A stretch of 64,000 nt of DNA. Source: Thalassococcus halodurans (lineage in GTDB: Bacteria; Pseudomonadota; Alphaproteobacteria; Rhodobacterales; Rhodobacteraceae). Position 1 is the stretch's first letter, and each line of letters starts with the position of its first letter. The stretch spans positions 124,001-188,000 of the forward strand of contig NZ_FNUZ01000007.1 of NCBI RefSeq assembly GCF_900108225.1, written 5' to 3'. The position numbers and the translations under genes were made by a program. This document shows positions 40,767 through 63,979 of the stretch, one piece after another. Under the pieces are notes generated by a model, which saw only the letters and a program-made list of their open reading frames with translations, ran no database searches and had not been told where the DNA came from.

Positions 40767-41201
40767 TTACTCGATGTTGATATCCACCCGCTGGCTTTCA
40801 CCGTTCGAGCCCGGGATTTTCAGGAAATAACGACCCGGTTTGATCGCCAGAAACTCGATCTCCATCGTGCCTTCTTCGTCGAACTCCACGGATTCCAGAC
40901 CGAAGGGACGGATTTCCAGACCGTTCACCACGACCTCATTGATCCAGATCGCACGGAAAAAGCCCGAGCCTTCCAGCGCCAGTTCGCCGGAACCGTCCGC
41001 GTAAATCTCCAACTCGTACACCATGCCCGAATTCAGCGTGATCGGACCGTCCGCCAGCGGCTTGCCCAAGGCCAGAGTGATCCCCGGCATCTCGCCTTTG
41101 TTTGTGTTCGACAGAACGCCCGCAAAACCGAAATCATGCGCGGCCGCCATACCCGCCGCGCCCATCGCCAAAGCCGTCACAGCTGCAAAAATCTTCTTCA
41201 T
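40767..41201 (-). CDS. Exported cupredoxin-like protein lacking copper ligands, xox cluster
   Basis: 144 residues with a Sec signal peptide (cleavage near AAA-HD). The body is predicted all-beta, with a C-terminal strand-loop-strand IKPGRYFLKIPGSNGESQRV shaped like a cupredoxin ligand loop but with no Cys, Met or His. The only His lies at mature position 1 or 2. Residues 105-118 are acidic. It overlaps the ATPase gene by four bases and has a strong GGGAG ribosome site. Last gene of the accessory operon. Function unknown; a periplasmic partner of the ABC transporter or of quinoprotein electron transfer is plausible. Confidence 0.7.
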   Translation of the reverse strand: MKKIFAAVTALAMGAAGMAAAHDFGFAGVLSNTNKGEMPGITLALGKPLADGPITLNSGMVYELEIYADGSGELALEGSGFFRAIWINEVVVNGLEIRPFGLESVEFDEEGTMEIEFLAIKPGRYFLKIPGSNGESQRVDINIE

Positions 41202-41818
41202 GGTATCTCTCCCGTTTCTACCAAATGAGGCGCCAACACTGCTGGTTGACCGCGCAATTCCAGAATTCTGTCGGCCAGTCGCGTGGCCTCTTCCCGTGCA
41301 TGGGTCACAAACAAAACCGCAGGTCCGGTTTCCGCGATCAGCGTTTCGGTCAGGCCCAGCATGGTGTCTGCTGTTTCCGGGTCAAGCGACACGAAAGGCT
41401 CATCCATGATCAGAAAATCGGGCTGACCGGCAAAGGCACGCGCCAGTGCCAGACGACGTTGCTGGCCCAGCGAAGTCTGACCCGGAAACAGATGTGCCTT
41501 GTCGGCAATGCCCACCTTTTTCAGCATCCGCATGGCCGCGTTTTCGGACAGATCAGGGTGCACCAGCGTGACGTTCTGCAACACCGTCCGCCACGGCAGC
41601 AGTGTGGGTTCCTGAAACACGATGGCCATTTTATCGGGCCGCGCAACGGTGCCCTGATAATCGGGATCAATGCCGGCCACGATCCGCAACAGCGTCGATT
41701 TCCCCACACCCGAAGGCCCCAATATGGCGACCGTTTCGCCCTTGGGGATCTGGAACGCAACGCGCCCCAAAATCGGGGTATCGCCATAGGATTTCTGCTG
41801 GATGTCGACGCTGATCAT
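41198..41818 (-). CDS. ABC transporter ATP-binding protein, xox/PQQ cluster
   Basis: 206 residues from the ATG at 41818, overlapping the permease stop by four bases. Walker A GPSGVGKST near 38, Q-loop VFQEPTLLPW, Walker B FLIMDEPFVSLD near 141. The signature sequence is degenerate: TSLGQQRRLALARA rather than LSGGQ. SsuB/TauB-type subfamily. Energises the adjacent permease. Confidence 0.88.
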   Translation of the reverse strand: MISVDIQQKSYGDTPILGRVAFQIPKGETVAILGPSGVGKSTLLRIVAGIDPDYQGTVARPDKMAIVFQEPTLLPWRTVLQNVTLVHPDLSENAAMRMLKKVGIADKAHLFPGQTSLGQQRRLALARAFAGQPDFLIMDEPFVSLDPETADTMLGLTETLIAETGPAVLFVTHAREEATRLADRILELRGQPAVLAPHLVETGEIP

Positions 41819-42564
41819 GCGGCCCTCCAGCGGCGCACGCGCCGTTCCCATGGCTGAAGCAACAGCCATTCGACCGCCAACATCACAAAGATGAACGAAA
41901 ACGCATAAACCAGCACCATCGCCACATCAAACAGTTGGAAATACAGATGGATTTGAAAGCCCACGCCAGACGAGCGGCCCAGAAATTCAACCACCAGAAC
42001 GATCTTCCAGATCACGGCCACCCCGTTGCGCGCAGCACCGGCGATAAAAGGGGCCATCTGCGGCAGGGTCACATGGCGCAGCTTGGTCCAGCGCGACATG
42101 CGATAGACCTGCGCCATGGCATCCAGATCACGCGAGGTCGCGCGCGCCCCTTCGCGGATCACCGTTGTCACGTTCGGAATTTTGTTCAACGTCACCGCCG
42201 CGATCGCGGCCGTTTCGTTCAGCCCGATCCACAGGTAGCACAGCACGATCAGGACCAGAGCAGGCAGGTTCAGGAACACCACCAACCACGGGTCCAGCCA
42301 GCGGTTGATCCGTTCGGACCGCCCCATGATCAGGCCAAGCGCAATCCCCACGCCCATAGCCAGTGCAAAGGCCCAGAGCACGCGGATCAGCGTTTGGAAC
42401 AGATGATATGGCAGCTCGCCCGACGCGACCTCTTGCAAAAAGGGGTCAATCAACGCCCAAGGCTGGGGAAGGACCGTGGGATCGCCGGAAATAGCGGCGG
42501 CCACGATCCAAAGACCCAATAGCGCAATCAGAGAAAACGCCGGAACAAGCCTGTTTTCAGTCAT
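41815..42564 (-). CDS. ABC transporter permease (SsuC/TauC type), xox/PQQ cluster
   Basis: 249 residues with six hydrophobic segments and an EAA loop near 150-185 (DLDAMAQVYRMSRWTKLRHVTLPQMAP). Nitrate/sulfonate/taurine-type inner-membrane permease. Position between the binding protein and ATPase, inside a quinoprotein accessory operon, suggests a substrate related to methanol dehydrogenase function rather than sulfonates (inference). Confidence 0.88.
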   Translation of the reverse strand: MTENRLVPAFSLIALLGLWIVAAAISGDPTVLPQPWALIDPFLQEVASGELPYHLFQTLIRVLWAFALAMGVGIALGLIMGRSERINRWLDPWLVVFLNLPALVLIVLCYLWIGLNETAAIAAVTLNKIPNVTTVIREGARATSRDLDAMAQVYRMSRWTKLRHVTLPQMAPFIAGAARNGVAVIWKIVLVVEFLGRSSGVGFQIHLYFQLFDVAMVLVYAFSFIFVMLAVEWLLLQPWERRVRRWRAA

Positions 42565-42573: not shown

Positions 42574-43548
42574 TCATTCTACGGCTGCAAAAAGACCCTC
42601 GGGCACAGTGGACGCGCCACCGACCAGATCGGCACCACCCAGATCGAACATAACCTTCAGGAACGCTTCCGCGCCTTCGGCATCTACCGGACCACGCGCA
42701 GGCACACCGGCCAGCCAGTCATTCTTAAGCTGTTCGAACTGCGCGTCTGTCTTGGCGTTCATACGCGGTCGCACGGCCTCCCATGCGGCAGGGTCAGAGG
42801 CCAGCAAATCCTTGGCGTCGCGGCTTGCGTTATAGAACGCCTGCGCCAGACCCGGGTTCGCATCCAGATAGCTTTGCTTAAAGAAGTAGCCCAACAAAGG
42901 CGTATCCGTGTTCAGGCCCAGTTCTTTGGCAGCGGTCTGAACCGACATAACCTCTTTCATACCGGCGGCTTTCATCTTGGCAAGGAAGTGCCAGAAGTTG
43001 ATCGCGCCGTTCAGTTCGCCACCCAGACCGGATTTGAAAATCAGCGGCGGGGCACCAAACACCTGTTCGGTGTCTGCCTTCAGATCCATGCCGTATTCCT
43101 GCTGCGCATAGGCGCGCAGGATCAGCCAGCTTTTGTCCAAGGGACCACCGGCAATGCCGATCTTGCCGCCTGCCAGATCCTTCAGGCTGGTGGCAGTACT
43201 GTCCTTGGGCACCACGATACCGCCCACGGCCTTGGAGTACGGCACAACGACGTAATCCTTGCCATCGGCGTTCTGGCGCGCGACCCAGATCCAGTCGGCA
43301 ACGGCCATATCGGCTTCGTCGCCTTCCACGGCGACACGGGTCGCGCCGTTGTCTGCGTAGGGCATCACCTCGAGCTTGAAGCCGTGCTTTTCGTCCAGAC
43401 CGTTTTCGACAATCGTCGCCAGTTCCCAGTTGACCGTTCCGATCTTAAGAACCGCTGCACGAACTGTCGGCAGATCCTGCGCAAAGGCCGCGCCTGCCAT
43501 GGCCACAGCAACCGCCGTTGCGCCCAGTCTTGTCAGAAAATGTTTCAT
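42574..43548 (-). CDS. ABC transporter periplasmic binding protein (SsuA/NMT1 type), xox/PQQ cluster
   Basis: 324 residues with a Sec signal peptide (cleavage near AFA-QD); start at 43548 follows GGGAGG. Type II binding-protein fold of the NMT1/SsuA group: LKIGTVNWELATIVENGLDEKHGFKLEV, DEADMAVADWIWVARQNADG, SVQTAAKELG. Contains LAGGKIGIAGGPLDKSW, typical of this group. Directly downstream of the acidic PepSY-like gene. Ligand unknown; metal chelates, PQQ or small organics are candidates. Confidence 0.88.
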   Translation of the reverse strand: MKHFLTRLGATAVAVAMAGAAFAQDLPTVRAAVLKIGTVNWELATIVENGLDEKHGFKLEVMPYADNGATRVAVEGDEADMAVADWIWVARQNADGKDYVVVPYSKAVGGIVVPKDSTATSLKDLAGGKIGIAGGPLDKSWLILRAYAQQEYGMDLKADTEQVFGAPPLIFKSGLGGELNGAINFWHFLAKMKAAGMKEVMSVQTAAKELGLNTDTPLLGYFFKQSYLDANPGLAQAFYNASRDAKDLLASDPAAWEAVRPRMNAKTDAQFEQLKNDWLAGVPARGPVDAEGAEAFLKVMFDLGGADLVGGASTVPEGLFAAVE

Positions 43549-43587
43549 CACGTTTCCTCCCACGGGTGATGGTGCCTGCGCGTCAGG

Positions 43588-43848
43588 TTATTCCTGACGG
43601 CGGCTCACTTCATTCAGGTCCAGATCAAGCTTGATGTCCTGCTGACCACTGCCTGCACAAATGACATCATCCAGATCGTACCCGTCTTCTTCAACCTCGA
43701 TATCATCGGGGTCCATTTCGCACTGCTGTTCCGCCAGAAGCGCCATGATCTGTGCAACCACCTCTTCGGATGCTTCCTCTTCATGAGAGGCTGCAAAGAC
43801 CGGTGCCGCAAGTGTCAGGCACAGGGCGGATGTCATCAGTTTCTTCAT
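43588..43848 (-). CDS. Small exported, extremely acidic PepSY-like protein; candidate metal (lanthanide) binder
   Basis: 86 residues with a clear signal peptide (MKKLMTSALCLTLAAPVFA) and an AGGAG ribosome site. The mature ~66 residues contain 22 Asp/Glu and only three Lys/Arg. Predicted layout is one helix (residues 27-43) followed by beta strands (EVEEDGYDLDDVICAG; DIKLDLDLNE), resembling a single PepSY half-domain. Cys43 and Cys64 could form a disulfide. It lies between the beta-propeller and the ABC binding protein of the xox accessory operon. A PepSY protein that binds lanthanides (LanPepSY) is known from a methylotroph; relation to that protein is inferred from fold and context only. Confidence 0.7.
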   Translation of the reverse strand: MKKLMTSALCLTLAAPVFAASHEEEASEEVVAQIMALLAEQQCEMDPDDIEVEEDGYDLDDVICAGSGQQDIKLDLDLNEVSRRQE

Positions 43849-43870: not shown

Positions 43871-44845
43871 TCAATTCGGCGTCACGACAACGCCCCAAGG
43901 CTGTTGTCCGACTTGTACAGATTTGATGGCCTTTTCCTTTTCAACATCGATAACAGTGATGTCGTTGGAATTGCCATTGGTCGTTAGTAGGTACTTCTGG
44001 TCAGGGGTGAACCCCAACTGCCAGACGCGCTGCCCCACAATGATGTAATCCTTCACCTCAAGCGTCGCGCCATCGACGACAGCGACACGGTTTGCAGGCC
44101 CCAGCGCGATGAAAATCTTGGATCCGTCCGCCGTCACTTTCAGGCCCACAGGCTGCAGCCATTCCGGCAAAACGCCCGGCACCTCAAAGCTGATCTTGCC
44201 CGCAACGGTCGGCGCGCCGGTGTCATCGATATCCATCACCGTGACCGTGCCGCCGATTTCAGACGTTACGAACAGACGCTTGCCGTCATCGGTGTATTGC
44301 GCATAGCGCGGGCGCTGATCGACCAGCACGTTGTGCTTGATCTTATAGTCTTCGGTCGAAATGAAATGCGCCATGTTGGTGGTTTCAGAGGTGTTCACCA
44401 CAAACTTGGTGTCCGGCGAAATGCCCATGCCTTCGGGTTCAACACCCACCGGCACCTCGGCCAGAATGGTACGCGTTTCCGTATCCGTCACGGTCACAAG
44501 GTTGTCGTCCTCGTTCGCGATATAGAGCGGGTTGCCGCTGGGATGCAGAACGAACAGCTCGGGGTCAGGACCAGACGGAAGGGTGTGGATTTCCTTATAC
44601 GTCTCGGTATCGAACACCCGCACAGTGTCGTCGTCCGATGCCGCAACATAAAGCTTTTTCCCATCGGGGCTGATGGTGATGCCGCGGGGGCGGTTGCCAG
44701 CATCAAACTCTGCCAGCACTTCCCAGGTGTCGGTGTCCACCACGGTGACCGTGTTGCCCTTTTCGTTCGACACGAACGCCTTGTTCGCCATGGCGGGCAT
44801 CGCCACCACGGATGCCAACGCCGCAGACAAAAACAACGATTTCAT
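43871..44845 (-). CDS. PQQ-dependent catabolism-associated YVTN beta-propeller protein
   Basis: 324 residues; start at 44845 behind TTGGAG. Signal peptide then a full set of YVTN-type repeats (GNTVTVVDTDTWEVLAEFDAG; DDTVRVFDTETYKEIHTLPSG; DNLVTVTDTETRTILAEVPVG), about seven blades. It fits the family found beside quinoprotein alcohol dehydrogenases (TIGR03866-like, from memory). Periplasmic; role unknown, possibly scaffold or chaperone. A second propeller gene lies at 47223-48161 on the opposite strand. Confidence 0.88.
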   Translation of the reverse strand: MKSLFLSAALASVVAMPAMANKAFVSNEKGNTVTVVDTDTWEVLAEFDAGNRPRGITISPDGKKLYVAASDDDTVRVFDTETYKEIHTLPSGPDPELFVLHPSGNPLYIANEDDNLVTVTDTETRTILAEVPVGVEPEGMGISPDTKFVVNTSETTNMAHFISTEDYKIKHNVLVDQRPRYAQYTDDGKRLFVTSEIGGTVTVMDIDDTGAPTVAGKISFEVPGVLPEWLQPVGLKVTADGSKIFIALGPANRVAVVDGATLEVKDYIIVGQRVWQLGFTPDQKYLLTTNGNSNDITVIDVEKEKAIKSVQVGQQPWGVVVTPN

Positions 44846-44860
44846 CACGGTAATCTCCAA

Positions 44861-46048
44861 TCAGTTAAATGCGGTGCAAGAAGATTCAGGCTTATCCAAC
44901 CCGAGTGTATCGAGCGGCGAAACCTGATGCAGGAACCCGTCCTGCGGCGACACGCTGACTGTTATCCGCCCGTCATAAAGCAGAATTGGCTGGCGCAACT
45001 GGCCGTTCCAAGGCCGGAACGTCACTGGCACGCCCTTGAAGGCGGCCAGTTCGAATTCATCACTGATCGCATAGTCCAGAATGGTCTGCGGATCGTTTGA
45101 CGAGGTCCGGATCACCGCCTCGCCCAGCACGCGCAGGGACAGCCAGACCTGATAATCCTCTTCACGGATATAGCGGCCTGTCAGTTCTTCGAACCGGCGC
45201 TGGAACTGGGTCGCGCCCCATGCCTCATGCGCGCCGTGGATTGTCACAGGCCGCAGCCCCGCCGCCCCCATCACAGGGCGCGGTGTCCACAAATGGAACG
45301 GAAGGTATGGCGCGAACACGTCGGACTCATCGGCGGCGATCACCACCTCGTGGTCGTCGGCATCTTGGGTAAAGACCGGCAACTGACGCTGAACCAGAAC
45401 GTGGCCCGTATCGGTACGGCGCGACCCGCCGGTGTCTTCGAACTCACGCTCTTCTGCGATACGCCCGCCGAATTTCTTTGCCGCACGGCGATAGGCACCA
45501 GCCAAAGCCTGATCTTCGGGGTTCGAGCCGTGGATCAGGAACCAGCGCGGCCAGCGCTTCCACAAGGCAAACTGCGCCACCGCATCGGCCCGCATCGCGC
45601 GGGATGGCGCCACATGCAAAACGTTTGCGCGGCATTCATTGTCACGCAGCGCAACGCCCTCGGCCTGCGCGTTAAACACCACCGCCCCATCCTGTGCAGC
45701 GCGGTCCGCCAGTCGGGTCAGATCGGCATCATCGGCCATCAGAATGATGAACCTGATCCCGTCGGCCAGGATCGCATCCAGCGCGGCATCGGCCTCTTCT
45801 GGCGGCACGGCAACTGTCGTGGTTTCATAGGTGTGGCCAAGGAACGTGCCCGTGGTACCGTTGTCTTCATCCGCTAGCTGCGCACCGGCAAAGCCATTGT
45901 CTTCTGGGAATTTTTCGTAACGCGAAATCGGTGCTAGACGCGGGGGATCAATCCGCAGCACAGCCGCCTTGATTTCCAAAGCCGCCAAATCTATCGACAT
46001 GCCGCCCCACATGAGGGCCGCAAGAAACACCATCAGGATGCGTTGCAA
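44861..46048 (-). CDS. Periplasmic binding-like protein of PQQ alcohol dehydrogenase systems
   Basis: About 395 residues. The TTG at 46048 is chosen because GGGAGG lies six bases before it; the next ATG is at 46033. Signal peptide (MVFLAALMWGG) then a type I (branched-chain amino-acid-like) binding fold, with ILADGIRFIILMADDADLTRLADRA and WPRWFLIHGSNPEDQALAGAYRRAAKKFG. Two Cys occur, one in the centre (NECRAN) and one at the C-terminus (SSCTAFN). Matches the binding-protein family named for PQQ-dependent alcohol dehydrogenase systems (TIGR03863-like). First gene of the minus-strand accessory operon. Confidence 0.83.
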   Translation of the reverse strand: MQRILMVFLAALMWGGMSIDLAALEIKAAVLRIDPPRLAPISRYEKFPEDNGFAGAQLADEDNGTTGTFLGHTYETTTVAVPPEEADAALDAILADGIRFIILMADDADLTRLADRAAQDGAVVFNAQAEGVALRDNECRANVLHVAPSRAMRADAVAQFALWKRWPRWFLIHGSNPEDQALAGAYRRAAKKFGGRIAEEREFEDTGGSRRTDTGHVLVQRQLPVFTQDADDHEVVIAADESDVFAPYLPFHLWTPRPVMGAAGLRPVTIHGAHEAWGATQFQRRFEELTGRYIREEDYQVWLSLRVLGEAVIRTSSNDPQTILDYAISDEFELAAFKGVPVTFRPWNGQLRQPILLYDGRITVSVSPQDGFLHQVSPLDTLGLDKPESSCTAFN

Positions 46049-46082
46049 ATTTTCCTCCCTTGCCGTTCTAACGACGGCTGCG

Positions 46083-46111
46083 TTGACTGTGCCACACACC
46101 ACGCATACGTG
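46083..46111 (+). promoter_or_regulatory. Candidate sigma-70 promoter for the plus-strand PQQ accessory genes
   Basis: TTGACT at 46083-46088, a 17-base spacer, then TACGTG at 46106-46111. The -10 box is weak. It lies in the divergent region between the two accessory operons, with CCGTTCTAACGACGG at 46063-46077 as a possible operator. Confidence 0.3.
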
Positions 46112-46157
46112 AACCGATACTTTTGGAGCATTGAAGCCCAAGGCCCCGAGTTTCACC

Positions 46158-46676
46158 ATGACCGATATGAAGTGGATCGCGGCCTTTTTCCTGACCTGTC
46201 TGGCACCCATTGTGGCGGCGCAACAGCCCGCCCAGCCTGACTTTGATCACAGTGCAAAGGTTGCGTTCTTCGGCATCACATATCTGGATGAATCGCTGCA
46301 AACCCAAACATATGGCCCTGATCCGGCGGAATTCGCGCGGATCGAGATGCTAGAAGACATGGTGCGCGACTGGTTTTCCGAGGCAGGTCTGTCCTTTGTT
46401 GATCTCACACCCGCCGAGGAAGACATCAATCGCGTCGTCAATCTGGCGAAATGCTACGGCTGTGATTCGCGGATCGCGGTCAAACTGGGGGCCCAGTATT
46501 CACTTGTCGGTGAGGTGCAGAAGGTGTCGAACCTGATCCTTTCCATGAACCTGCAGTTGCGCGATGCCGCGACAGGGAACATGGTACGGGGACGGGTTGT
46601 CGATATCCGCGCCAACAACGACGAGGCATGGGCTCGGGGCATGCGCTACATCCTGAAAAATGCATTCTTCAACTGA
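46158..46676 (+). CDS. Exported DUF3280/DUF2380-type protein, PQQ cluster
   Basis: 172 residues from the ATG at 46158 (an ATG at 46167 and a TTG at 46131 are alternatives). Signal peptide (MKWIAAFFLTCLAPIVAA) then an alpha/beta domain with KVAFFGITYLDESLQT, LVGEVQKVSNLILSMNLQLRDAATG and RGMRYILKNAFF. It contains a CYGCDSRIAVKLGA segment with two close Cys. Such proteins recur in quinoprotein dehydrogenase clusters; molecular role unknown. Confidence 0.75.
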   Translation: MTDMKWIAAFFLTCLAPIVAAQQPAQPDFDHSAKVAFFGITYLDESLQTQTYGPDPAEFARIEMLEDMVRDWFSEAGLSFVDLTPAEEDINRVVNLAKCYGCDSRIAVKLGAQYSLVGEVQKVSNLILSMNLQLRDAATGNMVRGRVVDIRANNDEAWARGMRYILKNAFFN

Positions 46677-46696
46677 CGAGGAGACAGAGAAGAACA

Positions 46697-47239
46697 ATGA
46701 AACGGTTTTCAATTCTCATGGCGGTCCTGGGCTTTCTGCTGCCCGCCATGGCCATGGCCCACGGGCCCACACGGCAAAAGGTGACGCTGACCACAGAAGT
46801 GGCCGCTGAACCCGCCGAAGTCTGGGCCGCAATCGGCAACTTTCAGGACATGTCCTGGCATCCTGCGGTCGCCGCCACCAACGGTGAAGGCGGCAATGAG
46901 CTGGACGCAACACGCGTTCTAAGCCTTGGTGCTGCGGACGGCCCGACAATCGCAGAGGTTCTGTACAAGTTCAGCGATGAAAAGATGTCGTATTCCTACC
47001 GGATCACCGACGTCGCCGTCGAAGTTCTGCCGGTCACCAACTATTCGTCGCACCTGACGGTCAAACCCCGCGATGGCGGTGGCTCGATCGTGGAATGGCG
47101 CGGCGCGTTCTATCGCGGCTACCCGAACAACGATCCACCGCCCGAACTGAGCGATGAGGCCGCGATCAACGCCGTCACAGGCGTATACCAGCAAGGTCTT
47201 GATGCATTGGTCGAGAAGTTCGGTGCCCCGAACTCCTAA
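46697..47239 (+). CDS. SRPBCC family protein, MxaD-like
   Basis: 180 residues; start at 46697 (GAGGAGACAGAGAAGAACA upstream). Signal peptide (cleavage near AMA-HG), then a START/polyketide-cyclase-like fold: VAAEPAEVWAAIGNFQDMSWHPAV, YKFSDEKMSYSYRI, SIVEWRGAFYRGYPNNDPPP. MxaD homologues influence electron transfer between methanol dehydrogenase and its cytochrome. The preceding gene ends 20 bases upstream and its own 3' end overlaps the next gene. Confidence 0.85.
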   Translation: MKRFSILMAVLGFLLPAMAMAHGPTRQKVTLTTEVAAEPAEVWAAIGNFQDMSWHPAVAATNGEGGNELDATRVLSLGAADGPTIAEVLYKFSDEKMSYSYRITDVAVEVLPVTNYSSHLTVKPRDGGGSIVEWRGAFYRGYPNNDPPPELSDEAAINAVTGVYQQGLDALVEKFGAPNS

Positions 47240-48161
47240 GGCCCTTTGCCTGATCCTGTCCCTCGCGGCCCTACCGGCTGCGGGGGACATTGCCTTTGTG
47301 ACGAACCAGAACGGCGAGGAACTCAGCGTTCTGGACCTAAGCGCAGGCACCGAAATCAACCGCATCCCCCTGCCCGGCCAACCGGCAGGCATCGCGGTTC
47401 ACGGAACACATATCTTTACCGTTTCACCCGAGGCCAAGACGGTACGCCGCTTTGACCGCGCCACCATGACCGAACAGGCCCGCGTCACACTGGACGGCGG
47501 CCCGACGGGCATCGCCTATGATCCCACACGCGACAGGCTGTTTATCTCGGACTGGTTCAACACGCGGCTTTGGGCGCTGGATGGTGCGACGCTGACCGTA
47601 CAGGCGGAACTGGCCACAGGGGTATCGCCCTCGGGCATCGCGGTGTCCGACGATGGCCGCTGGATTGCCTCGGCCGACAGGGATTCAGACCAGGTGTCGA
47701 TCTTCGACGCCGAAACGCTGGACCTGCACAAAGTGGTACCCGTGGGCGTCCGTCCCTATGGCCTGCGCTTTGATGATCAGCACCGCCTGTTTGTCGGCAA
47801 CGTGGGCACCAACGATGTGTCGGTCATCATCCCCGACACAGGCGAGATCATCGCAACCGTACCCGTGGGCGACCGCCCCTATGGCGTCGCCTTTGCCAAA
47901 GGCCGCGCCTTTGTCACCAACCAATATGAAAACACCATCACCGTCATCGACCTGACCACCTTGGAACCCATCAAAACCATCGAGGGCGGCGAATATCCCG
48001 AAGGCATTGACGCCACAGAAGACGAAACCACCATTGTTGTGGCAAACTGGTTTGAAAATACCGTCACCTTGATTGACGCCGAAACCCTAGAGATTACCGG
48101 CGACATAGAAACGGGGGACGGTCCACGCGCCTTTGGCGTGTTCATTTTAGGGGAGGACTAG
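47223..48161 (+). CDS. YncE-like YVTN beta-propeller protein, PQQ cluster
   Basis: 312 residues if started at the GTG at 47223, behind GAGAAG; this gives a good signal peptide (VPRTPKALCLILSLAALPAA). Upstream in-frame ATG codons lack one. About seven YVTN/NHL blades (GEELSVLDLSAGTEINRIPLPG; SVIIPDTGEIIATVPVGDRPYG; TITVIDLTTLEPIKTIEGG). Overlaps the MxaD-like gene by 17 bases. Distinct in sequence from the propeller at 43871-44845. Confidence 0.85.
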   Translation: MPRTPKALCLILSLAALPAAGDIAFVTNQNGEELSVLDLSAGTEINRIPLPGQPAGIAVHGTHIFTVSPEAKTVRRFDRATMTEQARVTLDGGPTGIAYDPTRDRLFISDWFNTRLWALDGATLTVQAELATGVSPSGIAVSDDGRWIASADRDSDQVSIFDAETLDLHKVVPVGVRPYGLRFDDQHRLFVGNVGTNDVSVIIPDTGEIIATVPVGDRPYGVAFAKGRAFVTNQYENTITVIDLTTLEPIKTIEGGEYPEGIDATEDETTIVVANWFENTVTLIDAETLEITGDIETGDGPRAFGVFILGED

Positions 48162-48162
48162 A

Positions 48163-48969
48163 ATGAAGGGATTTCTACTAACCACCGCATTCACCGCGCT
48201 CGCGCTGCCCGCCGTGGCAGGCGAAAGCTGGGACAATGTTCGTGCCCAGCTTTATGGCGATAAGGCGCTATTGGACGGCACGCAGGTGATTGCGCTGGAT
48301 GTGCCCTATCGAAGCCCCAACGATGGCCGCACCCAGATCGCCGCCCATGTCGCGGCCCCTGCGGGCAAACGGCTGGGCGAAATCACTGTGGTCTTGGATG
48401 AAAACCCGATGCCCGTGTCCGCGGTCTTCGAAATGGATCAGCCGCAAGAACGGTTTTTCTTCGACGTCACCATGCGCGTCAACGGCCCTACCCCGCTGCA
48501 CGTCGTGGCTGAAACCACCGACGGCGCGCTTTACGTGGTCGAGGGGTTTGTGAAGACCTCGGGCCAAGGGGCCTGCGCCGCCCCGCCGGGAACCGATATG
48601 GAAGAGGCGCTGGCCACGCTCGGAAATATGACGATCGGCGTGGATTCCCTTAAATCCGGCGGTGCGCTGGATAAGCTTGCCGCACTCAGCCAACGGCAAC
48701 GCCAGCTTGATCTGGATATCTCGCACCCGTCGAACTCTGGCATGCAGATGGATCAGATCACCCTTCTGTTCGTCCCGATGCGTTATGTCGAAGACGTCCA
48801 GATCGATCTGGACGGCGGCGGATACGTGGGCATGACGGGGTCGATTTCCTTATCGGAAAACCCCCGCGTCAGCCTGTCTGTGCCTGCGCAAACCCAATCG
48901 GTGGATGTCACCATGACAGACACCGACGGGTTCACCAGCCACGCGCACAAGGACCTTGCCGGTTTCTAG
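48163..48969 (+). CDS. Quinoprotein dehydrogenase-associated SoxYZ-like carrier protein
   Basis: 268 residues with a signal peptide (cleavage near AVA-GE). The N-terminal half is SoxY-like; a Cys-bearing arm GQGACAAPPG with Cys138 replaces the usual terminal GGCG. The C-terminal half (about 175-268) is SoxZ-like (ISHPSNSGMQMDQ; DGFTSHAHKDL). Fits the fused SoxYZ carrier family tied to quinoprotein dehydrogenases (TIGR04557-like). No other sox genes occur here, so a sulfur-oxidation role is unlikely. Four-base convergent overlap with the CoA-ligase gene. Confidence 0.85.
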   Translation: MKGFLLTTAFTALALPAVAGESWDNVRAQLYGDKALLDGTQVIALDVPYRSPNDGRTQIAAHVAAPAGKRLGEITVVLDENPMPVSAVFEMDQPQERFFFDVTMRVNGPTPLHVVAETTDGALYVVEGFVKTSGQGACAAPPGTDMEEALATLGNMTIGVDSLKSGGALDKLAALSQRQRQLDLDISHPSNSGMQMDQITLLFVPMRYVEDVQIDLDGGGYVGMTGSISLSENPRVSLSVPAQTQSVDVTMTDTDGFTSHAHKDLAGF

Positions 48970-50474
48970 GCCTCGACCTGCGCCAGTTCCGCTGCGAAGT
49001 GATCCAGCAGACGATGTTTCAGGATCTTGCCCGTCGCCGTCGCGGGCAAGACATCGGTCAGGATGATCCGGTTGGGGCGTTTGTAAGCAGACAGCGTCGT
49101 CTTGACGAATGCGGTCAGATCATCCGGAGTGACATCCGCCGTAGGACCCACCTGCACAAAGGCCAGCACCTCTTCGTTGCCCTCAACCGTCCGGCCAATC
49201 ACAGCCGATTGCACCACCTGCGGATGGTCATTCAGCGCGGCTTCGACCTCGGGCGGATAGACGTTGAAACCGCCACGAATGATCAGTTCCTTGCTGCGCC
49301 CCACAATATGCAAACGGCCTTCTTCATCGATGCGCCCCAGATCGCCGGTGCGCATATAGCCGTCCTCGGTGATCGCCGCCGCCGTCAGATCGGGCGCGCG
49401 GAAATAGCCCTTCATCACCTGCGGGCCTTTGACCTGCACTTCGCCCACTCCGGCCTCGGAGCCGACTGTTTCGTCCAGCCTGACCAGAGTTTCAGGCAGC
49501 GGCGGACCCACCGAAATATCGGGGTGCCCGATAGGATGCTGCGTGCCCGACACCCCCGCCGTGGTTTCCGTCATGCCATAGCCGTTCTGCAGCGCGATGC
49601 CATAAAACGCCTCGGCCTTGCGTTTCCACGTGGGATCAAGCGGCGCGGCACCTGACGACACATAGCGAAGTGATTTGTTCTGCAACGTGCTGTGCCCATG
49701 CTCGGCGGCAAAGGCCATCAACAACGCGTGCATCTGCGGCACCGCAGGCAGCACCGTGACCCCGCCTTCCAATGCCTCGTACAACGCCTTGGGCGTGAAC
49801 CGTGCGGCCAGCTGGATCGTCGCCCCCACAAGGGTCGAGGCCATCAGCATCGACGCCAGCCCGAACACATGGGTCAGCGGCAGCGCGCCATAAACACGAT
49901 CTTCCGCCACCAATTTGCGCAGCCCGACCGAGGCCTCGGCCGCGTAAATCAGGTTGCCATGGGTCAACATCACACCCTTAGGGTCGCCCGTTGTACCCGT
50001 AGTATACAGAATGACCGCAATATCCTGTTCGCCCTTGGGCAGCGAAGACTGAAGTGTTCTGAAATGCACCTGTCCGGCCAAAAGCGCCTCTGGCGTGGCC
50101 GCAGCATCGTCGGCGTGTTTGCCCGCTTCCACCGATATACCTGAAGTATACAGCACCAGATCGGGGTCAGAATGCGCCTCGATCCGTGCAAGCTCGGCCC
50201 CAGACATCCGCGCGTTTACTGGAATGATCCACGCGCCGATCCGGCTGGCAGCAAAAATCGCCACGGGCAGCACAACGGCATTTTCCGCAACAGCCAACAA
50301 ACGCCCGCCAGCCTCCAGCCCATGATCCCGCAACGCGGCTTCCATCTGGTCGATCATCGCGCCGTACTGGTTCCACGTGATCGGCGTTTCATCCGCATCG
50401 ATCATCGCCAGCGCGTCGGCCCGCCCCGCCAGATGCGGGGCCAGCAGATCGTCAATCCGTTCGGCTTTTGTCAT
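48966..50474 (-). CDS. Acyl-CoA synthetase (AMP-forming), PimA-like
   Basis: 502 residues from the ATG at 50474 behind GGGAGGGTGCC. ANL superfamily motifs: ILYTTGTTGDPKGVMLTHGN (~160-180), NGYGMTETTAGVSG (~305), RTGDLGRIDEEGRLHIVGRSK (~380-400) and the C-terminal Lys in TATGKILKHRLLD. Activates a carboxylic acid to its CoA thioester. Last gene of an operon whose other members match the pimelate (pim) beta-oxidation set. Confidence 0.9.
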   Translation of the reverse strand: MTKAERIDDLLAPHLAGRADALAMIDADETPITWNQYGAMIDQMEAALRDHGLEAGGRLLAVAENAVVLPVAIFAASRIGAWIIPVNARMSGAELARIEAHSDPDLVLYTSGISVEAGKHADDAAATPEALLAGQVHFRTLQSSLPKGEQDIAVILYTTGTTGDPKGVMLTHGNLIYAAEASVGLRKLVAEDRVYGALPLTHVFGLASMLMASTLVGATIQLAARFTPKALYEALEGGVTVLPAVPQMHALLMAFAAEHGHSTLQNKSLRYVSSGAAPLDPTWKRKAEAFYGIALQNGYGMTETTAGVSGTQHPIGHPDISVGPPLPETLVRLDETVGSEAGVGEVQVKGPQVMKGYFRAPDLTAAAITEDGYMRTGDLGRIDEEGRLHIVGRSKELIIRGGFNVYPPEVEAALNDHPQVVQSAVIGRTVEGNEEVLAFVQVGPTADVTPDDLTAFVKTTLSAYKRPNRIILTDVLPATATGKILKHRLLDHFAAELAQVEA

Positions 50475-50504
50475 GGCACCCTCCCCTGATGCGCTGAGCA
50501 CAAC

Positions 50505-51638
50505 TTACGCTGCAGACAGACGGATGAACCGTTCCAGATGGAAATCCGTATCGCCAAAGCGGTGGTCGACCATGGTCAGACGTTTGGCGAAATGTGACAG
50601 CGCATATTCCTGCGTCATGCCAATCCCACCATGCATCTGGATCGACTCTTCCACCACCTGACGCGCAACACGCCCGATCAGGTTTTTCGTGGCCGAGACA
50701 TGACGTTCGCGTTCCACACGATCACCGTCCAGATTGCCCGCAAGGTTGATCACCGCGGACCGCGCCTGTTCGATTTCAATCAACACATCTGCCATCCGGT
50801 GTTGCAGCACTTGGAATTTGCCAATCGGCTGGCCGAACTGTTTGCGCTGGCTCAGATAGTCGGTGGTCAGGGTCTTGATGGTTTCCATCAACCCCAGCGC
50901 CTCTGCCGCGATGGCGCAGGTGGCGCGTGCATTGGCATCTTCCAACGCGGCAAATGCCTGCCCTTCGGCACCCAGCAGGGCATCGCCCCCGACAGTCACA
51001 TCCGTCAACGTCACCTCAGCCGCGCGGCCGCCACCATTCAACGGATAGCTGCGCATCTCAACGCCGTCCTGCCCCACAGGCACAAGGAACAGCGAAATCC
51101 CGTCCTGATCCATCGCGTTCCCCGAGGTCCGCGCGGACACGATCAGCATCTGCGCCGACGGCGCGCCCACAACCACAGCCTTGCGTCCGTTAAGGACATA
51201 GCCATCACCCTGCGCCTTGGCCGTCGCCTCAACCCGTGACAGGTCATAACGGCTGTTCGGTTCGCCATGCGCAAAAGCCACCTGCACCGCACCGCCGATG
51301 ATCTCATCCACCAACCCGCGCTGCGTGTCGTTACCCAAAGCGGCGATCAGACCGCCCGACAGCACGCCCACATCCAGCAGCGGCTCGACCAGACCCGCGC
51401 GGCCCGTTTCCTCGAACACCAAGCTCAGGTCAAACCCCGCGCCACCAAAGCCGCCGTCTTCTTCGGAAAACAGCGCGCCGATGACACCCATTTCCGCCAG
51501 ACCGGCCCAAAGGCCCACATCATGCCCCGCTTCGCTTTCGGTCGCAGCCGCCAGCCCTTCGTGCGTCACGCTTTCAGACAGATAGCGCCGCAGGCCGTCC
51601 TGAAGCATCTGCCGTTCTTCGGTAAGTTCAAAGTTCAT
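50505..51638 (-). CDS. Acyl-CoA dehydrogenase, PimD-like small subunit
   Basis: 377 residues with the three-domain acyl-CoA dehydrogenase layout (N-terminal helical 1-115, central beta 116-220, C-terminal helical). Motif QMHGGIGMTQEYALSHFAKRL near the C-terminus. Adjacent to a second, different acyl-CoA dehydrogenase, as in PimC/PimD heteromeric dehydrogenases. Confidence 0.88.
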   Translation of the reverse strand: MNFELTEERQMLQDGLRRYLSESVTHEGLAAATESEAGHDVGLWAGLAEMGVIGALFSEEDGGFGGAGFDLSLVFEETGRAGLVEPLLDVGVLSGGLIAALGNDTQRGLVDEIIGGAVQVAFAHGEPNSRYDLSRVEATAKAQGDGYVLNGRKAVVVGAPSAQMLIVSARTSGNAMDQDGISLFLVPVGQDGVEMRSYPLNGGGRAAEVTLTDVTVGGDALLGAEGQAFAALEDANARATCAIAAEALGLMETIKTLTTDYLSQRKQFGQPIGKFQVLQHRMADVLIEIEQARSAVINLAGNLDGDRVERERHVSATKNLIGRVARQVVEESIQMHGGIGMTQEYALSHFAKRLTMVDHRFGDTDFHLERFIRLSAA

Positions 51639-51641
51639 GGA

Positions 51642-52838
51642 TCACAGCCCCAGAATTGCTTTGCTGATGATCTGGCGCTGCACTTCGTTCGAGCCGCCAT
51701 AGATCGACAGTTTTCGGTTGTTGAAATAAGCCTGCGTGCCCGCCATCGCGTACTCCGGCCCGACCGGATCAGCATTGCTGCCGGCCTCCAGTTCCTCGGA
51801 TACAAACGGCGCGGCATAGGGGCCAATCGCCTGCCGAGTGAGCGCATTGATCTCTTGCCGGATGATTGTGCCTTTGACCTTCAGCATCGAGCTTTCCGCA
51901 CCGGGCGCATTGCCTGCCGCCGCCGCCGCGATCACGCGCAGGTTCGTGGTCGCCATCGCCATCAGGTCAATTTCGACCTGCGCCAAACGCCCCGCAAAAA
52001 ACGGGTTCTGGATTAGCGGCTGACCACCGGATTGTTCCAGCCCCGCAATCCGCCGCAAGTTCGCCAGCCCCTGACGGGCAAAGCCCACGCCTGCGATGTT
52101 CGTGCGTTCGTGGGTCAGCAGATACTTGGCATAGGTCCAGCCCTTGTTCTCCTCGCCCACAAGGTTTTCGACCGGCACACGCACGTTGTCGAACCAGACC
52201 TCGTTCACCTCGGCCTCGCCATCCAGCAGAACAATCGGGCGCACTTCGACGCCAGGCGTGTCCATGTCGACCAGAAGGAAGGAAATGCCTTCCTGCGGCT
52301 TGCCCTCTTTCGAGGTGCGCACAAGGCAGAAGATCATGTTGGCGTACTGGCCCAGCGTGGTCCATGTCTTCTGACCGTTCACCACGTAATGATCGCCATC
52401 GCGCACCGCCGTGGTTTTCACACTGGCAAGGTCCGACCCCGCCCCCGGTTCGGAATAGCCCTGACACCACCAGTCATCCCCGTTCAGGATACGCGGCAAC
52501 CAATAGTCCTTTTGCTGCTGATTGCCGAACTTCTGCAGAACCGGCCCCAGCATGTGCAGACCGAACGGCACGATGCGCGGGGCACCGGCGGCGGTTGTTT
52601 CCATCTCGAAGATATGGCGCTGCACAGCATCCCATCCGGTACCGCCATATTCAGGCGCCCACGTTGCGGCCAGCCAGCCCCGTTCGTTCAGTATGGCGTG
52701 CCATTCCTCATAGTCGGCCTTGCCAAGACGTTTACCGCCTTTGACCTTATCGGACAGATGCGCAGGCAGTTTATCCTGCAGGAAACTCCGCACCTCGTCC
52801 TGAAAGGCAAGTTGTTCCGGCGTATAGCTTAGGTCCAT
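51642..52838 (-). CDS. Acyl-CoA dehydrogenase, PimC-like large subunit
   Basis: 398 residues from the ATG at 52838 (MDLSYTPEQLAFQDEVRSFL). Motifs: WCQGYSEPGAGSDLASVKT (~130-148), YVVNGQKTWTTLGQYAN, and YGGSNEVQRQIISKAILGL at the C-terminus. Resembles the large subunit of pimeloyl-CoA dehydrogenase. Upstream and in tandem with the small-subunit-like gene, three bases apart. Confidence 0.9.
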   Translation of the reverse strand: MDLSYTPEQLAFQDEVRSFLQDKLPAHLSDKVKGGKRLGKADYEEWHAILNERGWLAATWAPEYGGTGWDAVQRHIFEMETTAAGAPRIVPFGLHMLGPVLQKFGNQQQKDYWLPRILNGDDWWCQGYSEPGAGSDLASVKTTAVRDGDHYVVNGQKTWTTLGQYANMIFCLVRTSKEGKPQEGISFLLVDMDTPGVEVRPIVLLDGEAEVNEVWFDNVRVPVENLVGEENKGWTYAKYLLTHERTNIAGVGFARQGLANLRRIAGLEQSGGQPLIQNPFFAGRLAQVEIDLMAMATTNLRVIAAAAAGNAPGAESSMLKVKGTIIRQEINALTRQAIGPYAAPFVSEELEAGSNADPVGPEYAMAGTQAYFNNRKLSIYGGSNEVQRQIISKAILGL

Positions 52839-52854
52839 GGATCCATGTTCCTTC

Positions 52855-54030: not shown

Positions 54031-54033
54031 GAA

Positions 54034-56136: not shown

Positions 56137-56163
56137 GTGTCCTCCCTTTAATCCCGCTGGTCC

Positions 56164-56179
56164 GAATTGGATTCCATTC
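56164..56179. promoter_or_regulatory. Candidate IclR-type operator upstream of the pimF-like gene
   Basis: GAATTGGATTCCATTC contains the exact palindrome TGGA-T-TCCA at 56168-56176. It lies in the 55-base gap between iclR and the pimF-like gene. Its half-site TGGA also occurs in the longer palindrome at 60027-60049 before dctP. Confidence 0.4.
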
Positions 56180-58388: not shown

Positions 58389-58390
58389 AA

Positions 58391-60180: not shown

Positions 60181-60720
60181 TTAGGGCTGCGGCTCTTCCG
60201 GCGTGATCTGTTCCAGCGGATAATCCCACAAAGACCAGCCATCCGTGCCTTCTGGCAGCCAATAGACGGTGGTGTAGCCGTATTCCAAGGCGCGCTTGGC
60301 GGCGTTCCAGCTCATCCAGCATTCTTCCAAACAGAACATCAGAACGGGATGCGTTTTGTCCCCATTCGTCACTTTTGCAAGACCGCGTTTGAAATAGTCG
60401 TGGGTCACATCCGCCAGCGCGCCATAGCCCACATTCGGCAACCAGATCGCGCCGGGGATGCTGTTGCGCGGCTTATCGCGCCAGATCGTTCCGGGTGGCA
60501 GGTTGGCTGGCTTGGGGGCTTGGGGCAGCACGTCGATAAAGGCCGTTGCACCTTCTTCCCACAGGCGATGCGCCTCTTCGGGGCCGACCACAGTGCCGCC
60601 AGCCAATGTGGTGGGCACCGGACCACGATAATGGTCCATCCGGTAATCGCTGGGTTCGTCCTGCGCGGTTGCGCAAATGGGCAGCAAGCTGATCGCCAGT
60701 GCTGCCCAGATCCGTTTCAT
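60181..60720 (-). CDS. PQQ-dependent catabolism-associated CXXXCW rhodanese-like protein
   Basis: 179 residues with a signal peptide (cleavage near ATA-QD). Rhodanese-like fold (FIDVLPQAP; NSIPGAIWLPNVGYGAL) with the redox-type motif at Cys130/Cys134-Trp135 (FCLEECWMSWNAAKRAL). Matches the family named for this motif in PQQ alcohol oxidation clusters (TIGR03865-like). Overlaps xoxJ by four bases. Role unproven. Confidence 0.88.
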   Translation of the reverse strand: MKRIWAALAISLLPICATAQDEPSDYRMDHYRGPVPTTLAGGTVVGPEEAHRLWEEGATAFIDVLPQAPKPANLPPGTIWRDKPRNSIPGAIWLPNVGYGALADVTHDYFKRGLAKVTNGDKTHPVLMFCLEECWMSWNAAKRALEYGYTTVYWLPEGTDGWSLWDYPLEQITPEEPQP

Positions 60721-61565
60721 TGACCGACCTCGATCACGGCGTTGCCCATGTCATTGACCAAGGGCACGCCCGCGTCGGACAGAATGGCGTTAATTTCGTC
60801 CTGATGGCGGCGGATCAGCGAATTCAGCTTACGCTCCCACACCTTTTCACCCTGACGCACACCCATAGTGATCCGGAAAAACAGCCGTGGCGGCAGCGTT
60901 TCCTTGACCAAAGGCACAACCATCAGATCGGGGTAGTTTTCCTTGACCAACGGACCGGCCAAAGGCCCCCACAAAATCGCCGCATCGGTGTCGCCTGCGT
61001 TGACGTCGTTCAACATCGTTTCGACCGGATTTTCGTAGCGCCGGTCCACGACCAGATCATAGGGCTTGGCCCGCGCCAGCAACCGGTTACGCGCCATGTG
61101 ATCCGCAGGCGGGCTGCCCGCAATGATGCCAATCCGTTTGCCCTGCAACGCCGGATCGCCCATCGTATCAACAGCGGCCAACGGCCCGTTCTTGGGCATG
61201 ACCAACGCAAAAACAGACGTCATATAATGGTTGGTGTTCAGAACCAGCTCGTGGCCCTGCGCATATCCCATAATGACATCGCATTTGTTGGCTTTCAGCG
61301 TGTTGCGCACAAAGCCTGTCGCCATCGGATACCATTCATAGGACACCGGCAATTCCAGCTTGGACGCAATCAGATCGGCCAGCTTGTTCTCGTACCCCGT
61401 CTCTTCTTTGGTCGACATGGGATAGTTGGCCGGATCGGCACAGACGCGAAACGATGTCTTGGACACCAGATCGGACGTCTGTGCGGCACCGGGCCCTACC
61501 TGCGCCAGCAGGAGGGCCACAGCACCAATCAATGTCGTGACAGAGTTACGAACCCATGCAGGCAT
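60717..61565 (-). CDS. xoxJ: XoxJ/MoxJ-like periplasmic binding protein
   Basis: 282 residues with a signal peptide (cleavage near GAA-QT). Type II binding-protein fold opening FRVCADPANYPMSTKEETGYENKL, with GYAQGHELVL and TDAAILWGPLAG. MoxJ/XoxJ proteins are proposed to assist activation or maturation of the methanol dehydrogenase. GAGG lies about eight bases before the ATG, and the start overlaps xoxG by 20 bases. Confidence 0.9.
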   Translation of the reverse strand: MPAWVRNSVTTLIGAVALLLAQVGPGAAQTSDLVSKTSFRVCADPANYPMSTKEETGYENKLADLIASKLELPVSYEWYPMATGFVRNTLKANKCDVIMGYAQGHELVLNTNHYMTSVFALVMPKNGPLAAVDTMGDPALQGKRIGIIAGSPPADHMARNRLLARAKPYDLVVDRRYENPVETMLNDVNAGDTDAAILWGPLAGPLVKENYPDLMVVPLVKETLPPRLFFRITMGVRQGEKVWERKLNSLIRRHQDEINAILSDAGVPLVNDMGNAVIEVGQ

Positions 61566-62091
61566 CTTCAGCCTCGCGGATCATATCAGACTTCGCCTCT
61601 TTCTTGGCGGGCCGTCCACGGGGAATTGCCTCCATGCCGCGTGCCTTCAGGTACGTATAGATATCGTCCAGATAGCACATGACGTTGGCGTTATCGCCAA
61701 AGTGCGGCATGACCGAGTTGCCGTTCATACGGCCGTTCACAACCACGTCGACGAAATCATAGTAGTCCATGTTCACGGCCGAGTTCTTGATCTTCGGCGC
61801 GTAGGTCGATCCTTCGCCATCAGGGCCATGGCATACATGGCATTCCGAATGATAACGGCGGAAACCCGAGAATGTCAGCCAGTCGACAGCGCCATCGTCA
61901 TTGATGTTGAACGTCGGGATGTCGTCTTCGGTGTAGTAGCGGCCATCTTCGTCATACGAGACGGCGATATTCGGATCGTCTGCAGCAGCCTCGATAGGCT
62001 GGTCGCTCCAGGAAGCAGATTGTGCGAACGCAGCGAACGGTAGTCCAACCACAAATGCCGCAGCGACGAAAAGGGGAGATGCTGTACGCAT
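61546..62091 (-). CDS. xoxG: Cytochrome c, electron acceptor of XoxF (XoxG-like)
   Basis: 181 residues with a signal peptide (cleavage near AFA-QS). A single haem motif CHVCH at residues 84-88 and a probable axial Met128 in SVMPHFGDN. Extra Cys139 and Cys178. A basic stretch (RGRPAKKEAKSD) lies near the C-terminus. Cytochrome cL class; takes electrons from the PQQ enzyme in the periplasm. Position directly after xoxF supports the role. Confidence 0.92.
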   Translation of the reverse strand: MRTASPLFVAAAFVVGLPFAAFAQSASWSDQPIEAAADDPNIAVSYDEDGRYYTEDDIPTFNINDDGAVDWLTFSGFRRYHSECHVCHGPDGEGSTYAPKIKNSAVNMDYYDFVDVVVNGRMNGNSVMPHFGDNANVMCYLDDIYTYLKARGMEAIPRGRPAKKEAKSDMIREAEDACMGS

Positions 62092-62125
62092 GTCAGCGCA
62101 GACCTTTCAATTTGTGAGAAAACGC

Positions 62126-62156
62126 GGGCCGGCACACCGGTGAGGCGTACCGGCCC
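62126..62156 (-). other. Hairpin between xoxF and xoxG
   Basis: Arms GGGCCGG and CCGGCCC enclose 17 bases that contain a second CCGG pair. On the minus strand GCGTTTTC follows. It could act as a partial terminator or 3' stabiliser so that xoxF mRNA exceeds xoxG. Confidence 0.55.
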
Positions 62157-62173
62157 TATTCATGTGGTTTCGC

Positions 62174-63979
62174 TTAGTTCGGCAGCGAGAACACTGTCAG
62201 CTGACCACCCAGAGCGGTGTAGTCGCTCAGAGCAGCGTAGCCGCCCACAGCACCCAGACCGTCGTTCGGGTTTGTCAGACCAGCCGCCAGGCCGATGCCT
62301 GCCCAACCACCGATACCGGACAAGATGCCGATGTACTGCTTGTCATCATGCATGTAGGTCATCACGTTGCCGATGATGCCGGACGGTGTTTTGAAGCGAT
62401 ACAGCTCTGTGCCGTCTGTTGTGGACACGGCTTTCAGGTAGCCTTCCAGCGTGCCATAGAACACGACGTCACCCGCGGTAGCCAGAGCGCCGGACCATAC
62501 CGAGAACTGCTCGGGGATGGACCATTCGATCTCACCGTTGATGTTGTCCCAAGCGATGAAGTTACCCATACCGCCGTGGCTGTCAGGTGCCGGATACATC
62601 GCCAGTGTCGCGCCAACGTAGGGCTGACCAGCTGTGTAGGACACGCGGAACGGTTCGTAGTCCATGCAAACGTGGTTTGTCGGAACGTAGAACAGTTCTG
62701 TTTCGGGCGAGTACGCAGCAGGCTGCTGGTCTTTTGTACCAAGAGCCGCAGGACAGATGCCTGTCGAGTTCACGTCTTCGCCGTTCTGCTCGGTCGAGTA
62801 CTGAGCAACAACAGCCGGACGGCCATAGGTCTCAGACGCAGGGTCCATGTCGACGCCTGTTGTCCAGTTTACAGCCGGGTCATACTTTTCAGCAACCAGC
62901 AGTTCACCGGAAACACGGTCCATGGTGTACGCCAGACCGTTACGGTCGAAGTGGGTCAGAAGCTTGCGCTCAACGCCATCAATTTCCTGCTCCGTGAGGA
63001 TCATTTCGTTGATGCCGTCATAGTCCCACTCATCGTGCGGTGTCATCTGGTAGAACCACTTGGCCATACCTGTGTCGATGTCACGTGCCATGATGGTCAT
63101 GGACCAACGGTTGTCACCCGGACGCTGTGCAGGGTTCCATGTGGAAGGGTTACCTGTACCGTAGTACATCAGGTTTTCTTCCAGATCCGCGGAATACCAG
63201 CCCCATGTGGTGCCGCCACCGATCATCCACTGGTCGCCTTCCCAGGTGTTTGTACCCGAGTCTGCGCCAACCGGCTGGCCGAGGTGTGTTGTATTCTCGG
63301 GATCAGCCAGAATGTCGCTGTCCGGACCCATGGAATACGCGCGCCATGCAAGCGAACCGTCTGCGATGTTGTACGCGGTTACAGAACCACGAACACCGAA
63401 TTCACCACCGGAAATACCGACGATGACTTTGTCTTTCACCGGCAGAACTGTGGCTGTGTTGGTTTCACCGATGGACGGATCGCCGTTTACGACGGACCAT
63501 TCAACAGCACCTGTGTCTGCATTCAGCGCAACAACAGTTGTGTCAGCCTGGTGCAGGAAGATTTTGCCTTCTGCGTATGCTACGCCGCGGTTAACGGTGT
63601 CACAGCACATGACCGGAATAACGTTCGGGTCCTGCTTGGGCTCATACTTCCACTTGATCTTGCCTTCGTTGGCCAGGTCCAGAGCATAAACAATGTTCGG
63701 GAACGGCGTGTGCAGATACATTGTATCGCCAACAACCAGCGGCGAACCTTCGTGACCGCGCAGAACGCCGGTCGAGAATGTCCATGCAACCTGCAGGTCG
63801 CCCACGTTTTCCGCATTGATCTGGTCCAGCTGCGAGAAGCGCTGGTTTTTATAATCGCCGGTTTGGATGGCCCACTGGTTGGGGTTTGCCATATCAGCGA
63901 CGAGACCGTCATTTGCTGCCGCCATAGACGCGCAAAGTGCAATCCCGGATGTCAAAAGCGCTAGCTTTTTCATTTCCAA
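62174..63979 (-). CDS. xoxF: PQQ-dependent lanthanide-type methanol dehydrogenase XoxF
   Basis: 601 residues, full length, with a signal peptide (cleavage near MAA-AN). Eight-bladed quinoprotein propeller with Trp-docking repeats. Key residues: vicinal Cys125-Cys126 disulfide ([11 protein letters not shown]), metal ligands Glu193 (GGEFGVRG) and Asn277 (GTGNPSTW), catalytic Asp319, and Asp321 in DEWDYDG. The extra Asp two residues after the catalytic base distinguishes lanthanide-dependent XoxF from calcium MxaF, which has Ala. Oxidises methanol (and often other alcohols) in the periplasm. GGGAG precedes the ATG; the promoter is outside the window. Confidence 0.96.

Follow-up and report, generated by a model that had tools for sequence, protein, structure and literature searches.

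An 86-residue, acidic, exported PepSY_2 protein encoded in Thalassococcus halodurans has a well-supported place in the lanthanide system of its host. We propose that this protein is a periplasmic accessory of the PedA1A2BC/Lut importer that serves the methanol dehydrogenase XoxF, with a putative role as an Ln(III) buffer or relay in the manner of a one-domain LanPepSY; we give this reading somewhat better than an even chance. New here is the single-domain PepSY candidate linked to the Ped/Lut importer; the PepSY_2 family and the importer were already known. The window, throughout, refers to the whole stretch of 64,000 nucleotides that was analyzed.

The gene and its product

The gene and the two parts of its product map to the window as follows.

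43588..43848, minus strand: gene for the acidic PepSY_2 protein, 86 aa (open reading frame and translation, PF13670 match, alignment, AlphaFold2 model)
about 43792-43848, minus strand: signal peptide of the acidic PepSY_2 protein
about 43588-43791, minus strand: mature part of the acidic PepSY_2 protein

The protein reads MKKLMTSALCLTLAAPVFA before and ASHEEEASEEVVAQIMALLAEQQCEMDPDDIEVEEDGYDLDDVICAGSGQQDIKLDLDLNEVSRRQE after the likely cleavage site, which was placed before A20 by eye from an AxA motif. Its gene starts with ATG, features an AGGAG 8 nt upstream of this codon, and is separated from the preceding beta-propeller gene by 22 nt. The mature chain (67 aa from A20) contains 22 Asp or Glu residues, 3 Lys or Arg residues, and two cysteines (C43 and C64), which agrees with the earlier note's description of a tiny, highly acidic exported protein with two Cys. 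At 25.6%, the acidic fraction of the full-length protein is the highest among the 212 window ORFs of 80 aa or more; the runner-up reaches 19.6%. Codon differences relative to the nearest relative, from a Thalassococcus halodurans MAG (L026), are 14 synonymous and 3 non-synonymous, and about 50 named homologues are conserved; judged from these comparisons, the ORF is a real, constrained gene. Public plasmid records label the homologues only as “PepSY domain-containing protein” or “hypothetical protein”, and a literature search of partial coverage found no description of this acidic PepSY_2 family.

Fold family and conserved residues

The Pfam family PepSY_2 (PF13670) matches the window protein across profile positions 3-82 of 83 (E 7e-5) with a score of 23.2 bits, 1.1 bits under the gathering cut-off of 24.3. 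Among the 49 aligned relatives, 47 match PepSY_2 with E values of 0.01 or lower, down to 3.5e-13, and none matches a different family; a two-domain relative from Neomegalonema (L074) scores over the cut-off. The AlphaFold2 model, built from 49 sequences, consists of a helix (28-40) and four strands (50-53, 56-64, 69-75, and 80-85) with a pLDDT of about 95 in the folded part. Because the profile is covered nearly end to end and the model has the helix-plus-four-strand form, the window protein is a complete small PepSY_2 domain. The earlier note had called it a PepSY half-domain, a description that we abandon, and had staked its proposal on finding a PepSY-like fold, which the profile match, the relatives, and the model all supply.

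Searches of solved structures with Foldseek gave a best E value of 0.24, which is not significant, with the DUF2874/periplasmic entries 3due, 3db7, and 3elg ranked second to fourth; as support for the modeled fold, such DUF2874/PepSY-like structures are only suggestive. Foldseek against viral models yielded no significant match, and an NCBIfam profile search with the window protein yielded nothing meaningful. Asl1650, the best PDB sequence match to the family profile (E 0.12), was rejected.

Residues C43, I50, E51, L59, D60, D61, C64, Q69, D71, and E86 are invariant across the 49 aligned sequences; position 58 is Asp or Glu in all of them, and D46, D49, and D75 are conserved at 90% or more. 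If the modeled strands pair as simple hairpins, E51, D58, D60, D71, and D75 would lie on one face of the sheet. PepSY_2 relatives outside both the clade and the xox clusters retain E51, D60/D61, and D71 (L111-L113), and some outside relatives also retain the Cys pair (L162-L164). The acidic residues and the Cys pair are, therefore, marks of a wider PepSY_2 branch and no proof of lanthanide binding. We rejected “acidic plus Cys pair” alone as a marker of lanthanide function, since much of this pattern is common to PepSY_2 proteins outside xox clusters. The window protein resembles PF13670 members at large in having a signal peptide and one full-length domain; relative to them, the acidic clade is more acidic than basic, features a CxMDPDDIE...LDDVxC pattern, and is associated with pedA1A2BC and XoxF5.

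Phylogenetically, the acidic PepSY family forms a single clade (99/99) apart from other PepSY_2 proteins, with few alignment columns limiting its inner resolution. The proteins from Neomegalonema (L074) and Jannaschia pagri (L072) have two domains: the second falls in the acidic PepSY clade, and the first shows weak grouping with PepSY_2 proteins from outside it. Their genes are located at L074:9683-10159 (+) and L072:9683-10183 (+), and their architecture is like that of LanPepSY.

Genomic neighborhood

The genes surrounding the PepSY gene, and the xox genes further upstream, are listed below.

40767..41201, minus strand: 144-aa exported cupredoxin-fold protein (alignment, model, Foldseek, synteny)
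41198..41869, minus strand: ABC ATPase of Ssu/Tau type, not PedB (NCBIfam)
41815..42564, minus strand: ABC permease of Ssu/Tau/nitrate type (NCBIfam matches below cut-off)
42574..43563, minus strand: NMT1-type ABC substrate-binding protein (PF09084), its gene being the next one after the PepSY gene in 40 of 56 loci
43871..44860, minus strand: PedA2-type beta-propeller (TIGR03866 over cut-off, 511.5 bits)
44861..46210, minus strand: PedA1-type binding protein of the lanthanide importer (TIGR03863 over cut-off, 470.7 bits)
46131..48969, plus strand: divergent accessory genes for DUF3280, an SRPBCC/polyketide cyclase, a second YVTN propeller, and a SoxYZ-like carrier (TIGR04557), kept in relatives
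60181..63979, minus strand: CXXCW protein, XoxJ, XoxG, and XoxF (TIGR03865, TIGR03871, TIGR03874, and TIGR03075, all over cut-off)

Based on profile matches, the TIGR03866 and TIGR03863 proteins upstream of the PepSY gene correspond to PedA2 and PedA1 of the P. putida importer; the true pedA1 start is probably inside the listed ORF, which overlaps a divergent gene. PedA2 is annotated as a PQQ-dependent catabolism-associated beta-propeller (PMC12997753). Deletion of PedA1A2BC in P. putida raises the La requirement for PedH-dependent growth about 100-fold (PMC6839425), and the lut genes of M. extorquens, homologous to those of PedA1A2BC, are required for lanthanide transport (PMC7391723). The earlier note had correctly seen a beta-propeller and an ABC binding protein flanking the gene but missed the PedA1/PedA2 identity, and with it lanthanide import. 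The PedB (TIGR03864, over cut-off) and PedC of this genome are encoded on contig C4. Beyond the window, contig C12 of the same genome (G000 C12:92055-93092, minus strand) encodes another binding protein of PedA1 type (TIGR03863 over cut-off), which suggests a further PQQ dehydrogenase locus.

XoxF itself (62174-63979, minus strand) carries the Asp-Tyr-Asp lanthanide site that the earlier note had read, D319-Y-D321 in EWDYDGIN. Its start is 18 kb upstream of the PepSY gene, with acyl-CoA and TRAP transporter genes between; about 11 kb of these separate the SoxYZ-like gene from the CXXCW gene. Most roseobacters do not have this insert, and in them CXXCW adjoins SoxYZ. The supposed position in one operon with XoxF does not, therefore, apply to the window, where XoxF is 18 kb away; in most relatives, the xox and ped blocks are close. 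The intervening region (48966-60180) encodes an acyl-CoA ligase/dehydrogenase, a thiolase, a FadB-like protein, an IclR-type regulator, and TRAP genes, and has the look of an inserted segment that broke up the xox cluster.

Synteny across relatives

In the 56 loci compared, the same-strand gene immediately upstream of the PepSY gene encodes the 144-aa cupredoxin-fold protein in 42 cases and is pedA2 in 8. On the downstream side, the immediate neighbor encodes the NMT1-type binding protein in 40 loci and a pedB-type ATPase in 6 (L085, scored as “ATPase” in this count, is PedB-like). In relatives, the PepSY gene is situated between pedA2 and pedB, usually just after the cupredoxin-fold gene. It is contiguous with PedA1A2 or PedBC genes in several genera, sits immediately 5’ of pedB-pedC in L071, L073, L074, L085, L114, and L122, and overlaps the ATPase gene by 4 bp in Paracoccus alcaliphilus (L122). 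Sinorhizobium fredii, of a different order, harbors the whole cluster in the order xoxF-G-J ... pedA1-pedA2-144aa-PepSY-SBP-permease-ATPase-pedB-pedC. In another alphaproteobacterium, an unrelated exported protein of 80 aa, which has two Cys and matches no Pfam family, is encoded between the cupredoxin-fold gene and pedB (L132:3358-3600, +).

Gene order also bears on a regulatory function, in which the protein would bind the sensor domain of a histidine kinase and tune lanthanide-responsive expression. The precedent is DbfQ of Vibrio cholerae, likewise a small exported protein with a single PepSY domain, which binds its kinase at 30 nM (PMC12714742), and two-component genes do occur in some clusters (e.g., L122 and L123). 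DbfQ, however, is 135 aa long and encoded with its kinase and regulator (PMC12714742), whereas the partners of the PepSY gene are metal ABC importer genes: pedA2 lies before it, and the genes after it encode transporters, not kinases. Only 7 of the 56 loci have two-component genes resembling those of L122 and L123 within 4.5 kb, and annotation of the window's cluster genes identified none. We ranked a DbfQ-like role lower and regard it as quite unlikely.

The cupredoxin-fold partner

The 144-aa protein is modeled with a cupredoxin fold at a mean pLDDT of 86.9, and Foldseek matches it to copper proteins at E 3e-6. Its alignment of 35 sequences contains no invariant Cys, His, or Met, and E96, E106, and D108 are invariant; the protein may itself be a hard-metal binder. 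Since its gene recurs in PedA1A2BC operons without a PepSY gene (homologues L127, L130, L132, L136, and L142), it may be the more general component of the pair.

The partner is relevant to the idea that the PepSY protein binds another metal of the pathway (Ca, Cu, or Fe), for example as a counter-ion buffer or as a copper chaperone acting with the cupredoxin-fold protein. The absence of an invariant Cys, His, or Met from the partner argues against the copper version. A homologue on a Sinorhizobium meliloti plasmid (L121:9902-10159, +) has genes for YcnI, CopC/CopD, and an iron ABC transporter next to it, which would fit such a function, but in the tree this copy is sister to the one in the S. 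fredii xox cluster (100/99) and so looks like a later move. Low-significance structural neighbors of the PepSY protein, 3db7 and 3u1w, are annotated as calcium-regulated or calcium-binding periplasmic proteins. Taken together, we consider binding of another metal distinctly improbable.

Co-occurrence with XoxF5 and the importer

Among 248 genomes of the family, 22 encode a strong PepSY homologue (two further matches at E about 0.005 are left out of this number), 31 encode XoxF5, and 21 encode both (Fisher 6e-22). PedA1 is present in 22/22 PepSY carriers and in 73/248 family genomes overall. When only PedA1 carriers are compared, the PepSY gene occurs in 21/31 with XoxF5 versus 1/42 without it (p 7e-10). 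These tests treat genomes as independent, so their significance is overstated; gene order and moved copies agree with them in direction. The single carrier without XoxF5 (G109) has its PepSY gene beside pedBC, genes reading as pqqBCE, and a PQQ dehydrogenase with a DYD motif, and ten additional carrier genomes, including those in which the gene has moved from the cluster, encode XoxF5 (nine) or a DYD-type PQQ dehydrogenase (one). A DYD-type PQQ dehydrogenase is present in every PepSY carrier examined. The association with xoxF, which the earlier note would have doubted had homologues been common in genomes lacking xoxF, is borne out by XoxF5 in 21/22 carriers and a DYD-type dehydrogenase in the remaining one.

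The same distribution weighs against a non-metal function, in which a propeptide- or chaperone-like PepSY protein would aid folding or protease shielding of PedA1, PedA2, or other secreted proteins of the cluster, with its acidic surface serving solubility. Both protease inhibition and metal binding have been linked to PepSY domains (PMC12714742), and the acidic positions are common to PepSY_2 proteins unlinked to lanthanide genes. Such a helper would leave unexplained both the near-absence of the gene from PedA1 carriers that lack XoxF5 (1/42) and its tracking of Ln-type dehydrogenases even after moving from the cluster; we deem it unlikely.

A strong PepSY homologue is absent from 10/31 XoxF5 genomes of the family, which indicates that the gene is dispensable and would be expected of a conserved but functionally unrelated gene traveling with the cluster. 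Retention with XoxF5 outside the cluster (L054, L063, L068, and L070) and a gene order conserved across two bacterial orders speak against such hitch-hiking, to which we assign a very small chance. In the two Salipiger loci of this set (L068 and L070), the PepSY gene lies outside the xox cluster with XoxF5 elsewhere in the genome; the gene beside it in L070 resembles, by eye, one for a TRAP transporter permease.

Beyond the family, PedA1 was found in 54/385 genomes of the class and a strong PepSY homologue in the window genome only; likewise, none of 19 PedA1A2BC importer loci from the class contained the PepSY gene. We therefore rejected the PepSY gene as a general PedA1A2BC component, given that PedA1 genomes of the class mostly lack it. 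Phylum-wide sampling recovered strong PepSY homologues in the same family only, plus weaker PepSY_2 proteins.

Proposed role in the periplasm

Under the importer-accessory model that we favor, the exported chain would form a single PepSY_2 domain in which the helix lies against a sheet of four strands and a disulfide between C43 and C64 may hold the fold together. Conserved carboxylates of the sheet (E51, D58 or E58, D60, D71, and D75), together with D46 and D49 of the preceding loop, would bind Ln(III), and the protein would thereby buffer scarce Ln(III) in the periplasm. It would then hand the metal, perhaps with the cupredoxin-fold protein, to PedA1A2 for import or, secondarily, to XoxF. 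Metal binding is inferred from the LanPepSY analogy and the charge pattern, and operon position points to PedA1A2 rather than XoxF as the recipient; metal selectivity, the disulfide, and the direction of transfer are putative elements of the model. The lanthanide buffer or delivery role suggested in the earlier note is plausible, and its genomic support is stronger than was known when that note was made.

Comparison with known systems and significance

LanPepSY is a PepSY protein that binds lanthanides; two reports describe LanP of Methylobacillus flagellatus as a 19 kDa protein with two PepSY domains, reported among methanotrophs mainly in Gammaproteobacteria (PMC12482762; PMC11845868). The likeness is that of a periplasmic PepSY protein tied to lanthanide methylotrophy, the window protein being predicted periplasmic, and the difference, by description only, is two PepSY domains versus one. 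A search for LanPepSY through a two-domain relative in plasmid records and the PDB did not find it. Because the window protein does not have the two-domain feature, we do not class the family as LanPepSY, but it would work like LanPepSY if the model is right.

In M. extorquens, the small periplasmic proteins LutC and LutD are encoded between lutB and lutE, and LutD binds Ln (PMC9260416, PMC7391723). They occupy the same operon slot in Methylorubrum extorquens as the PepSY gene does here, a likeness drawn by position and description only.

Lanmodulin is also a small acidic periplasmic protein of a lanthanide gene cluster but has EF-hands, whereas Pfam gave no EF-hand family match to the window protein, as the earlier note had anticipated. 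A Pro at loop position 2 is typical of lanmodulin EF-hands, and the EF-hand proteins found in the window genome are without it.

A 2025 marine study could find homologues of neither lanmodulin nor LanPepSY in an important ocean methylotroph and appealed to unknown proteins (PMC12542740). The PepSY protein is a strong candidate for a putative rare-earth carrier in organisms without a recognized known one. More tentatively, and at somewhat less than an even chance, single-domain PepSY candidate Ln binders and the cupredoxin-fold partner, which lacks conserved copper ligands and keeps invariant carboxylates, may form a periplasmic Ln(III) relay to PedA1A2BC in marine Rhodobacterales, replacing lanmodulin and LanPepSY there. 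The PepSY gene is present in Marinibacterium profundimaris (L073), a relative of strain La 6, the roseobacter whose use of XoxF was studied genetically (PMC5934484).

If selective Ln(III) binding proves true, the domain would offer a compact, EF-hand-free scaffold for rare-earth capture. For roseobacters, the analysis provides a small PepSY candidate that should express easily, plus an equally uncharacterized cupredoxin-fold partner. The PepSY family is a candidate for the capture of picomolar lanthanides and their hand-over between the outer membrane and the importer or XoxF.
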